Below are positions 12,347-16,911 of a DNA stretch of 64,000 nt, piece after piece. The DNA is from an uncultured Flavobacteriaceae bacterium. GTDB taxonomy: Bacteria; Bacteroidota; Bacteroidia; Flavobacteriales; Flavobacteriaceae. Numbering within the stretch: the stretch's first letter is position 1; the number at the start of each line of letters is the position of its first letter. Made by a program: the position numbers and the translations under genes. The notes under the pieces were generated by a model that was not told where the DNA came from, did not search any database, and worked only from the letters and a program-made list of their open reading frames with translations. The stretch is from contig CANMSB010000024.1 in the NCBI GenBank assembly GCA_947500445.1, forward strand, positions 1 through 64,000. The letters run 5' to 3'.

Positions 12347-12955
12347 ATGGCTTTTGAATTACCTAACTTACCGTACGCGTACGATGCATTGGAACCGAAC
12401 ATCGATGCGCGTACCATGGAAATACACCATACAAAACATCACAACGGATATACGACCAAGCTAAACGCCGCAATCGACGGTACGGATTTGGAAAACCAGT
12501 CCATCGAAACTATATTGTCCGGTTTGGATATGTCCAACGGTGCCGTTCGAAATAATGGGGGCGGTTTTTACAACCACTCGCTTTTTTGGGAAATTATGTC
12601 TCCCAATGGAGGTGGAACACCTTCAGGTGCTTTGGCCGATGCCATTAACGAGGCTTTCGGCTCCTTTGAAGGGTTCAAAGAGAAATTCAGTGCCGCGGCA
12701 GGAACCCGTTTTGGTTCCGGATGGGCTTGGCTGTGCGTACAGAAAGGTGGAAAGGTGGAAGTTTGTTCTACGCCAAACCAGGACAACCCTTTAATGCCGG
12801 ATACCGGTTGTGGCGGCGTTCCAATTTTAGGATTGGATGTTTGGGAACATGCCTATTACCTCAACTATCAGAATAGAAGACCCGATTACGTCAGTGCATT
12901 TTTTAACGTAATCGATTGGAACAAGGTTTCTGAACATTACGAGGCCAACAAGTAG
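12347..12955 (+). CDS. sodA: Superoxide dismutase, Mn/Fe type
   Basis: A 202-residue Mn/Fe superoxide dismutase that removes superoxide in the cytoplasm. All four metal ligands are present at expected positions: His27 (IHHTKHH), His77 (FYNHSLFW), Asp164 and His168 (DVWEHAY). Features such as GSGWAWLC are typical. Sequence inspection alone does not decide between Mn, Fe and cambialistic use, so the symbol sodA is a convention (sodB is the alternative). The gene has its own promoter box and terminator, and is followed by a 2 kb stretch without protein genes. Confidence 0.95.
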
Positions 12956-13673: not shown

Positions 13674-13752
13674 AAAAATAGAAAAGGGCGGAGAAGTCTC
13701 CACCCTTTTCGTCCCAAATCTTACCATAAACTTAACCTACTTATGCTATGGC
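13674..13752 (-). ncRNA. Candidate small RNA, array copy 1
   Basis: Read on the minus strand: a -7-like box TAATTTAG (13764-13757), a conserved body of about 38 nt (13751-13713), then a terminator hairpin (13705-13686, GGGTGGAG/CTCCGCCC with one U-G pair) and a T-rich tail. It is the most diverged of the four copies. A C-to-T change removes the plus-strand ATG seen in the others, so the body is not kept as a plus-strand peptide. The promoter box has one deviation from consensus and no visible -33 element. Confidence 0.6.
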
Positions 13753-13884
13753 ATTACTAAATTACTGGTATTGTGGGAAATAAAAAAGAAAATTTAAGAA
13801 AATTTAAGCACCCTTGATTGGAGAGGAGATGGGTAAAAACACTTAAAAGTGAGGTTAACCTTGTTAATTTCAGGGGTTTCGGTA

Positions 13885-13959
13885 ATAAAAAAGGCGGAGC
13901 ATAGCTCCACCTTTTTTCCCCAAATCTTACCATGAACTTAACCTACTTATGCTATGGTC
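13885..13959 (-). ncRNA. Candidate small RNA, array copy 2
   Basis: On the minus strand a perfect -7 box TATTTTTG (13970-13963) has a TTTTTTTG tract 16 bp upstream as a possible -33 element. The transcript would start near 13959 with GGACCAUAGC, run through the conserved body and end at a hairpin (13911-13893, GGTGGAGC/GCTCCGCC) followed by six T. The hairpin has a U-G pair on this strand, where the plus strand would have a C-A mismatch. Confidence 0.7.
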
Positions 13960-14184
13960 CTTCAAAAATAGTGCATAAGCCGAGACCAAAAAAAGGTTTT
14001 AGACGAACGCACGTTTAAAAGGTCGAAATACCTATATGGCGTTATTGTTCTACGAAGACGTACCAAAGCGATTGCAGATATCCGTTTTGTTCCATTGGCC
14101 TAGTTACAACAGAACGCATATCGAACGACCGTCTTAAAGGTGTGGGGAAGTGTCAAAAGAGATGTTGATGTAACGGGTAATATT

Positions 14185-14200
14185 AAGGTAGAAATGGTAT
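14185..14200. repeat. Dispersed motif AAGGTAGAAATGGTAT
   Basis: A 16-bp motif that recurs with small changes at 28780-28795. It resembles AAAGTTAAAATGGTAT at 25741-25756 and 28085-28100 and, inverted, the sequence at 28635-28650. All sites are intergenic, as expected of edges of a dispersed repeat family. Confidence 0.4.
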
Positions 14201-14210
14201 ACAGTAGCTA

Positions 14211-14286
14211 AAAATAAAAAGGTGGAGCATTGCTCCACCTTTTTCCCCAAATCTTACCATGAACTTAACCTACTTATGCTATGGTC
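14211..14286 (-). ncRNA. Candidate small RNA, array copy 3
   Basis: The clearest copy. On the minus strand: TTTTG (-33), 18 bp, then TATTTTTG (14297-14290), a start near GGACCAUAGC, the conserved body, a perfect 8-bp hairpin GGTGGAGC/GCTCCACC (14239-14221) and a T-tail. Total length is about 75 nt. A 15-nt motif shared with copy 4 lies 54 bp upstream of the -7 box. Confidence 0.75.
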
Positions 14287-14350
14287 CTCCAAAAATAAAG
14301 CATACTCCCAGGCCTCAAAAATATCTTTGTTGAACTCCCTCGAAATGGGT

Positions 14351-14365
14351 TGAAATGCACGATTT
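14351..14365 (-). promoter_or_regulatory. Shared upstream motif of small RNA copy 3
   Basis: TGAAATGCACGATTT (plus-strand reading) differs at one base from the motif at 14975-14989. Both lie 54-55 bp beyond the -7 box of their respective small RNA, while the DNA between is unrelated. This suggests a regulator binding site about 60 bp upstream of transcription start. Confidence 0.45.
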
Positions 14366-14537
14366 TGAAGTTCATCAGACGTTTATGGCGTTATAAGGGG
14401 GTAAAATGCATCGGTTTTACGTTTTGCGCACTTTGAATGGTATTTGGTAAAAGCGAATGTAAGTTCTTCCAAGTACTTTGTTGGTTTCGACGTTCGATGG
14501 TTATTAAAAGAATGCTGTTTCAGTAATGCCTGTTGCG

Positions 14538-14690
14538 AATTTGCCTTTAAATGGGCCATTCCAACCCTTTCTTGGTCTATCTACTCTTGTCACAGGTATT
14601 TTATTTACACAGATTGGATCATGCGCACTCCTTTTGGCGGCAGTGAATAACAAAGCAGCTTCGCCCTTTACGACCCATTTTATGAAAAAA
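14538..14690. repeat. MITE-like inverted-repeat element, diverged copy B
   Basis: A degenerate relative of the element at 13287-13426. It begins AATTTGCCTTTAAATGGGCC and ends with CGACCCATTTTA. The segment just inside the right end (AAAGCAGCTTCG) also matches copy A (AAAGCAACTTCG). It lies between small RNA copies 3 and 4 and accounts for part of their wider spacing. Confidence 0.45.
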
Positions 14691-14832
14691 TATGCCGTAA
14701 AATAGTACTTGTGCGGTAAAGTGGAGCTAAATGATCGGCGAGGGGCCTTTGGCCAATAAAAAATTACCGTAAAAAAGCAAATTTGAACGATTGAAGGGAA
14801 GAAAGATCGGTGATGGCTGTGGAAACATGTGC

Positions 14833-14909
14833 AAATAAAAAAGGTGGAGTAGACTCCACCTTTTTTGCCCCAAATCTTACCATGAACTTAACCTACTTAT
14901 GCTATGGCA
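14833..14909 (-). ncRNA. Candidate small RNA, array copy 4
   Basis: On the minus strand: -7 box TATTTTAG (14920-14913, one deviation), the conserved body, then hairpin GGTGGAGT/ACTCCACC (14860-14843) with a six-T tail. The loop-closing pair is U-A here where copies 2 and 3 have C-G, a full compensatory change. It is the copy nearest to the end of purF, which it follows on the same strand by about 100 bp, but its own promoter suggests separate transcription. Confidence 0.7.
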
Positions 14910-14974
14910 GTCCTAAAATAGCAGTGGATCGCATCTTTACATGTAAAAAGCCGATGAAAGCTATAATTTATCGA

Positions 14975-15012: not shown

Positions 15013-16911
15013 TTAATAAGCACGTTGGTTTTTCCCTTCATAAAAGTTAATAAAAGCTCGGTTGACCACGCGGTTTCCACCAGCGGTCGGATAATTTCCG
15101 GTAAAGTACCAGTCCCCCAAGTTTTTTGGACATGCCCGATGCAGGTTCTGGATACTCTGGTAAATGATTTGCACCTCGGCCCTAATGCCTTCTGGGCTCA
15201 GCAACTGTCCGATTTTCACAGAAATTTCTTCGGCGGTAAAAGGTTCATAAAACTCTTTCACATAATTGATTACCTCATGGTCCTTGGAGTTTACCTGTTT
15301 CAGGCATTTTTGATAGATCGTATCGACAAGGGCCAGCGAGTTGCGGTCCTTATGCAGTTCGTGCGCCGCCTTAAAGGCGATAAAATCCTCCAATTTGGCC
15401 ATGTCGATACCATAACAATCGGGATATCGGATTTGGGGCGCGGACGACACGACCACAATTTTTTTAGGCGATAACCGGTCCAATATGCGCAGAATGCTAT
15501 TTTTGAGCGTGGTGCCGCGAACGATACTATCGTCGATTATAACAAGGTTGTCACCTTCTTTGACCGATCCGTAAGAGATATCGTAAACATGGGCTACCAG
15601 ATCGTTCCTGCTACTGTCCTGTGTAATAAAAGTGCGCAGCTTGGCATCTTTTATGGCCACTTTTTCGATGCGTGGGCGTACTTTAAGAATATCGTGCAGT
15701 TGCTCACTTGTAATGTTTGGCCCAAGGGCCAAGATTTGTTCTTCTTTCTTTTTGTTGAGATAGTTCTGTGCCTCCTTTACCATTCCAAAAAAGGAAGTTT
15801 CGGCGGTATTGGGAATGTACGAGAAAACGGTTTTGTGCAGGTTGCCTTTTATTGCCGTTAATATTTTCGGGAAAATGAGTTTTCCCAGTTCTTTTCGTTC
15901 CTGATAAATTTCCTTGTCGCTGCCACGCGAAAAGTAAATACGTTCAAAAGAACAGGCTTTACGTTCGGTGGGGGGCAACACTTCCTTGATTACCGTGTTA
16001 CCGCTCTTTTTAATAATAATGGCGTGGCCCGGATCAAGCTCTTTTACGGCATCAAAAGGAACATTGAAAACGGTTTGAATGGCGGGGCGCTCGGAAGCAA
16101 TGGCCACAATTTCGTCGTCCTTATAGTAATAAGCGGGCCGTATCCCGGCCGGATCACGCAGTACAAAGGCATCGCCGTGCCCCAATAAACCTGCCATAGC
16201 GTAGCCGCCATCGAAGTTTTTGGTCGCCCGTTTCAATATCTTATGCACTTTTAGGCGCTCGGCGATCAAAGGGGAGGCTTCCATTTTATTGTAGCCTTCC
16301 TTTTTGATCTGTTTGTAAAGCTTGGCGACCTCATCATCTAAGAAATGCCCGATCTTTTCCATTACCGTAACAGTGTCGGCCATTTCCTTGGGGTGTTGCC
16401 CTAAGTGCACCAAATTATCGAACAGTTCGTGTACATTGGTCATGTTAAAGTTACCGGCAACGATGAGGTTCCGGTGCATCCAGTTGTTTTGGCGTAAAAA
16501 TGGATGTACGCTTTCGATACTATTTTTTCCGAAGGTTCCGTAACGCACATGTCCTAAAAGGAGCTCCCCGATATAGGGAATATGTTTTTTCTGCAGGGCG
16601 ATATTGTCCGCATATTCCGGATGCTCCAATATGGCGGAATTGATACGGTGATTGATCTGTGAAAAAATATCCTGAATGGGCTGCTGCTCGGCAGAACGAA
16701 CACGGCTCATGTAACGTTCCCCAGCATTCATATCCAATTTTATGCTTGCAAAACCGGCCCCGTCCTGGCCACGATTGTGCTGCTTTTCCATCATGAGGTA
16801 CATTTTATTGACCCCATAAAAAGCCGTGCCGTACTTTTTTTGATAGTACTCGAGAGGCTTTAGCAAACGTATTACCGAAATACCACATTCGTGTTTGATC
16901 GCATCACTCAT
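15013..16911 (-). CDS. purF: Amidophosphoribosyltransferase (PurF-like)
   Basis: A 632-residue class II glutamine amidotransferase fused to a phosphoribosyltransferase. It should catalyse the first step of purine synthesis, making phosphoribosylamine from PRPP and glutamine. The nucleophile is probably Cys9 in HECGIS after trimming of a short leader. RGQDGAG and HVRYGT mark the glutaminase half, and IIDDSIVRGTT is the PRPP loop, followed by SSAPQIRYPDCYGIDM. It is longer than the E. coli enzyme (about 505 residues). Bacteroidota often carry two PurF-type proteins and this may be the longer paralogue. An AAGGAG ribosome site precedes the ATG. Confidence 0.85.
   Translation of the reverse strand: MSDAIKHECGISVIRLLKPLEYYQKKYGTAFYGVNKMYLMMEKQHNRGQDGAGFASIKLDMNAGERYMSRVRSAEQQPIQDIFSQINHRINSAILEHPEYADNIALQKKHIPYIGELLLGHVRYGTFGKNSIESVHPFLRQNNWMHRNLIVAGNFNMTNVHELFDNLVHLGQHPKEMADTVTVMEKIGHFLDDEVAKLYKQIKKEGYNKMEASPLIAERLKVHKILKRATKNFDGGYAMAGLLGHGDAFVLRDPAGIRPAYYYKDDEIVAIASERPAIQTVFNVPFDAVKELDPGHAIIIKKSGNTVIKEVLPPTERKACSFERIYFSRGSDKEIYQERKELGKLIFPKILTAIKGNLHKTVFSYIPNTAETSFFGMVKEAQNYLNKKKEEQILALGPNITSEQLHDILKVRPRIEKVAIKDAKLRTFITQDSSRNDLVAHVYDISYGSVKEGDNLVIIDDSIVRGTTLKNSILRILDRLSPKKIVVVSSAPQIRYPDCYGIDMAKLEDFIAFKAAHELHKDRNSLALVDTIYQKCLKQVNSKDHEVINYVKEFYEPFTAEEISVKIGQLLSPEGIRAEVQIIYQSIQNLHRACPKNLGDWYFTGNYPTAGGNRVVNRAFINFYEGKNQRAY

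Follow-up and report, generated by a model that had tools for sequence, protein, structure and literature searches.

What might explain why four nearly identical short units, each with its own promoter-like box and terminator-like hairpin, stand in a row between sodA and purF in an uncultured Flavobacteriaceae bacterium? The stretch of DNA analysed here, called the window, comprises 64,000 nucleotides of contig CANMSB010000024.1 (assembly GCA_947500445.1). A preliminary description, made from the letters alone, had placed four near-invariant bodies between the two genes on the minus strand, and they are found at those positions, with start-to-start spacings of 206, 327 and 623 where about 207, 327 and 623 had been given. 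We consider it likely that the array encodes separately transcribed trans-acting sRNAs of ~71 nt whose main target is the mRNA of a small protein encoded downstream of scoB, with a probable sponge RNA in the window's genus.

Anatomy and conservation of the array

The whole array, boxes included, covers window positions 13682-14920 of the minus strand (Table 1); it begins 106 nt past the purF stop, in the same orientation as purF and pointing towards sodA. The 38-nt body is identical in three units and carries a single change in unit 1, and in shuffled sequence zero body matches are expected. A -7 box of the Bacteroidota type precedes CCATAG by five bases in each unit, the four boxes being those already described (TAATTTAG, TATTTTTG, TATTTTTG and TATTTTAG), and all four units close with the GC-rich hairpin and T-run that had been noted. 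The number of units stands, and the length formerly put at ~75 nt is corrected to about 70-71 nt, the transcript probably including the base before the body (A or G). The predicted fold consists of a hairpin in the 5' part of the body (loop GUAGG), an unpaired AAGAUUUGGGG and the terminator. Because its columns are nearly invariant, the 5' hairpin displays no covariation, and comparison therefore speaks neither for nor against it. Beyond these four, no further body copy was found in the same genome (G000), nor was any found in viral contigs.

Table 1. Positions of the array units, their boxes and the flanking genes in the window
Feature	Position	Strand	Basis
sRNA unit 4 (nearest purF): 5' GCCATAG start, body, terminator	14838..14908	-	body 14870-14907; covariance model R1 84.2 bits
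-7 box TATTTTAG of unit 4	14913..14920	-	sequence; box position kept in relatives
sRNA unit 3	14216..14285	-	body 14247-14284; covariance model R1 97.6 bits
-7 box TATTTTTG of unit 3	14290..14297	-	sequence; box position kept in relatives
sRNA unit 2	13888..13958	-	body 13920-13957; covariance model R1 93.4 bits
-7 box TATTTTTG of unit 2	13963..13970	-	sequence; box position kept in relatives
sRNA unit 1 (next to sodA), T-type subtype with UUUAUGG and GGGAC	13682..13752	-	body 13714-13751; covariance model R1 79.8 bits
-7 box TAATTTAG of unit 1	13757..13764	-	sequence; box position kept in relatives
purF, syntenic upstream neighbour, same strand as array	15013..16911	-	ORF; synteny
sodA, syntenic convergent neighbour	12347..12955	+	ORF; synteny

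An exact 32-nt body pattern retrieved at least 120 Flavobacteriaceae stretches, among them Maribacter, Zobellia, Arenibacter, Flagellimonas, Eudoraea, Robiginitalea, Kordia and others. In a set of 346 distinct units from 139 loci, a TAnnTTnG box lies within the 30 nt upstream of 302, at the identical distance in 271 of them, and a control stretch of equal length further upstream contains the box in 23 units of the same set. The body is almost invariant, and the terminator varies freely in sequence while its pairing is retained: double changes occur in all eight terminator pairs (259 cells, compared with 86 in shuffles), giving a covariation of 0.754 against 0.289. With the box at a fixed distance and every terminator pair covarying, the units are therefore sRNA genes. 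Their setting is equally constant, since purF on the same strand and a convergent sodA flank the units in all 104 loci that show both neighbours, and near-identical units stand beside purF in most Flavobacteriaceae. Copy number per locus ranges in relatives from 1 to 6, with a median spacing of 208 bp, and the T-type unit (UUUAUGG) is the last one, next to sodA, in 71 of 79 multi-copy loci, compared with 3 of 189 other units. The duplication is therefore old and the positions are orthologous.

The covariance search of flavobacterial genomes that the preliminary description had proposed was run with model R1 and recovered strong copies across the Flavobacteriaceae, a large Flavobacterium-like genus included, and solely there. 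Repeated independent sRNA genes, as the layout had first been read, are thus supported by box distance, terminator covariation and synteny, judged here from sequence; loss of boxes and hairpins in relatives would have spoken against that reading, and both are kept. An Rfam scan of the window brought no family to its gathering score, in agreement with the earlier remark that the body matches no named RNA family, and as far as we could find neither the sRNA nor the small protein described below has a name or database family. The transcriptome of F. psychrophilum lists 85 new RNAs, and its main text carries no coordinates by which to place the array (PMC9723704); Rfp18 of that species, considered as an equivalent, cannot be equated with it from the main text for the same reason.

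The small-protein mRNA at scoB

The preliminary description had offered pairing to mRNA start regions as one possible mode of action, and such pairing is now supported: almost the entire sRNA body can base-pair with the leader and initiation codon of one conserved small-protein mRNA. Its gene, unannotated and encoding 26-46 aa, lies downstream of scoB, which encodes 3-oxoacid CoA-transferase subunit B, at a distance from the array in the genome. The locus emerged from a wider pattern search with 6 matches against 1 in a reversed control. The short ORF stands downstream of scoB in most genomes, one strong copy per genome, and its product has a conserved C-terminus, [KR]K[LVI]FML; in the window's own genome it is MEAQMNHTPAQNEIQVYKNDYFSGFIMLMRKLFML, at G000:C2:243139-243243. 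Differences by codon position (119/43/345, the last being position 3) and 270 synonymous against 143 nonsynonymous changes indicate, from the substitution pattern, that the small ORF is coding. The family has no match in Pfam or NCBIfam. The predicted structure is a single C-terminal helix (mean pLDDT 71.6, about 88 within the helix), and in several genera the peptide has an amphipathic, mostly cationic character; that of the window's genome has a net charge of 0.

Leaders of the ORF contain one to about five sites, for example CCCAAATCTACC..AACTTAACCTA..CTATGG. Each genome's own sRNA was paired with the region from -110 to +45; in 31 of the 37 genomes, and in 25 of the 29 genera, this region bound more strongly than its dinucleotide shuffles at p<=0.01 (the genomes behind this count, and behind the co-occurrence and indel counts below, are not phylogenetically independent). 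Since the protein profile itself holds codons made of the site, a test of the leader alone was needed; it gave p<=0.01 in 18 of the 37, as against none in a region 220-330 nt upstream and a slight excess (2/37) in a control region within and beyond the ORF. The window's own genome is not among the significant ones: its duplex reaches -23.7 compared with -20.5 for shuffles (p=0.15), and its target leader has lost CCCAAGTC. Pairing is likewise non-significant in G009, G421, G029 and G436, and p=0.04 in G351.

Across 60 genomes, sRNA and ORF occur together in 22, the sRNA only in 5, the ORF only in 2 and neither in 31 (Fisher 2e-9). The genomes with the sRNA only include G014, in which the site-bearing locus is present but its frame interrupted, G029, where the ORF is weaker, and G006, with a completeness of 87%; completeness is below 85% in both genomes that have only the ORF. 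For the sRNA type with one A deleted (GGUAGAUUU), 15 of 15 target leaders favour the shorter form, by 3.8 kcal/mol, and in genomes whose sRNA retains the A 13 of 20 leaders lean the opposite way, a clade-by-clade match that rests on few evolutionary events. One sRNA copy of G391 has a G-to-A change that stands opposite a C-to-U change in the leader. The small-ORF profile found no match in the Flavobacterium-like genus g48, which keeps the sRNA; other targets must therefore exist, or the target has diverged.

Several features of the scoB loci may be recorded here. Leaders with many sites, up to about five, are seen downstream of scoB in L386 (G576), L405, L408, L392, L396 and L403, and in this set one site falls inside the ORF, where it encodes NLPKPT. 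In L388, L390, L391, L393 and L394 a second site, CCC(A/G)AATCTG, lies 3' of the small ORF and is followed by a conserved hairpin, CCCGTTCTTYGTGAGGTTAGAACGGG, whose loop is also conserved and which may be more than a terminator. Elsewhere, L334 (G035:C1) contains a CapD-like polysaccharide gene with a leader that starts GTCCCAAATCTTACG after a TATATTTG box, and from its sequence this mRNA is a possible second target in G035.

A target mimic in the window's genus

Weak hits that appeared to be extra, diverged sRNA copies in the window's genus were shown to be antisense RNAs: the interval between a fasciclin-domain gene and yidC carries the body in reverse complement, with a terminator behind it on the opposite strand. 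This anti-sRNA is present in 10 of 10 genomes of the genus examined, G000 included, and in a Zobellia (L346 on G000:C28, L335-L344 and L387); the G000 copy falls below the pattern threshold and was identified by reading the fasciclin locus. The invariant part of the anti-sRNA is TCCCAAATCTTACC, and the AUG that an exact complement would contain has been removed from every copy but the one in the window's own genome. Besides the terminator it has a conserved promoter, ACTTGACAACT..TTT..CATATTTACA. A complementarity scan over 2 Mb of the same-genus G009, with shuffled sRNAs as background, left the anti-sRNA as the sole outlier (63.2, the next being 53.5). A list of targets drawn up genome-wide by duplex energy over the same 2 Mb was rejected: the anti-sRNA aside, chance matches dominated it. 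Two small paralogous ORFs have double CCCAAT..TTAACCTACA-like sites in their 3' regions, at G009:C1 about 378660-378690 and 381160 (minus); one of these precedes a terminator, and both are within the scan's chance level.

In the window's genus, the promoters of the target and of the anti-sRNA share the element TT[CGT]ACAAC, 37-38 bp upstream of the -7 box; among 345 sRNA upstream regions, only 1 contains TT[CG]ACAAC. Target and mimic thus look co-regulated and the sRNAs do not. In G000, G010 and G020 the target promoters hold two TT[CG]ACAAC elements 21 bp, or two helical turns, apart, which suggests an unknown dimeric activator. Bacterial sRNA sponges, or target mimics, are noncoding RNAs complementary to an sRNA seed, and the second RNA of the window's genus is probably such a sponge, mimicking the target without coding. 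It differs from known sponges in having its own predicted terminator and a predicted promoter element in common with the target mRNA.

Alternative readings and the proposed circuit

Could the units be nothing but terminators or insulators between convergent genes? Their hairpins are usable in both directions and the convergent setting recurs in all loci, but terminators alone need no invariant 32-nt body, no box at a fixed distance and no complementary target, and we regard this reading as very improbable. Membership in FopS/GibS of Bacteroides (RF04319; PMC11697453) is a second reading, the units then being Flavobacteriaceae members that block SusC-type transporter mRNA starts and are modulated by RbpB. 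Both groups are short, of the same size and multicopy, end in a terminator and have a seed antisense to start regions, with a block of translation initiation proposed for both; the core UUCAUGGUA(UU)AGAUUU (CAUGGUA..AGAUUU) is common to the array sRNAs and Bacteroidaceae FopS, and we treat it as a lead only. The FopS R1' seed UUUUUCAUAGUAUUAGAUUUAAGG was not found as such in the array sRNAs, which share the core in part. FopS copies are mostly scattered, with a single-stranded 5' seed and susC mRNA targets, whereas the array is tandem beside purF, has a predicted 5' hairpin and has one small-protein mRNA as its target. The best score, a weak match on unit 4, is 20.7 bits against an Rfam cut-off of 56, none of 11 genomes of the genus or order exceeds that cut-off, model R1 does not recover any FopS locus at E<=1, and the SusC start regions of the window's own genome, viewed without a shuffle comparison, offer no clear matching site. 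Intermediate-looking RNAs do exist in G037, from another family of the order, yet on balance we find kinship with FopS improbable. These G037 RNAs (L156, L165 and L172) are FopS-like but under the Rfam cut-off, and consist of UUUUUCAUAGUAAGAUUUUGGGUUAG and a terminator, antisense to a AUGAAAAA start region.

The strongest competitor is a trans-encoded type I toxin-antitoxin system, in which the small helical peptide would be toxic and the array its antitoxin. A protein of 26-46 aa is within the limit of <60 aa and has the coding signature and C-terminal helix, the amphipathic, mostly cationic character seen in several genera is suitable, the antisense covers the start codon with the significance in 31 of 37 genomes reported above (though not in G000), and TimP/TimR (PMC7667032) provides a precedent. 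However, sRNA and ORF neither overlap nor adjoin, the array being at purF/sodA (G000 C24) and the ORF at scoB (G000 C2); they are unlinked and vertically inherited at fixed places, unlike most type I loci, and the window's peptide is uncharged overall, so that we hold a toxin to be unlikely. Like TimP/TimR and other type I pairs (PMC7667032, PMC3919570), the system combines a gene for a very small protein with an sRNA complementary to its leader; it departs from them in its unlinked genes, several sRNA copies, sponge-like RNA and family-wide vertical conservation. LhrC1-5 of Listeria (PMC6794450) are likewise several near-identical sRNAs that repress through start-region pairing, as the array sRNAs would, but differ in sequence, length (111-114 nt), host phylum and targets (adhesin, OppA and heme genes).

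We therefore return to trans-acting sRNAs directed mainly at the small-protein mRNA. Gene anatomy, conservation, complementarity, co-occurrence and the shared promoter element were computed; from them we infer transcription, the order of pairing, repression and titration. First contact would be made by sRNA AGAUUUGGGG with CCCAAAUCU in the target leader, then by the GUAGG loop with CCUAC, and the duplex would spread across the start codon (sRNA 5' CCAUAG on CUAUGG) and stop translation. In the window's genus, induction of the target promoter would also yield the mimic, which would titrate the sRNA and relieve repression. A more ambitious version, doubtful as a whole and offered tentatively, is a dispersed, family-conserved circuit of three RNAs: a bank of sRNAs silences a small amphipathic, possibly membrane-active protein, leader sites have multiplied (up to about five) in some clades, and a co-induced mimic switches the protein on in one lineage.

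Few trans-acting sRNAs have, to our knowledge, been characterised in Flavobacteriaceae, and the family gains a widely conserved one with a concrete, testable partner, while an unannotated small-protein family is revealed. The sRNAs mirror the start of the small-protein gene and therefore probably shut the protein off. Leaders whose tandem sites number from one to five, together with the mimic, form a natural series for sRNA dosage, site number and sponging thresholds.
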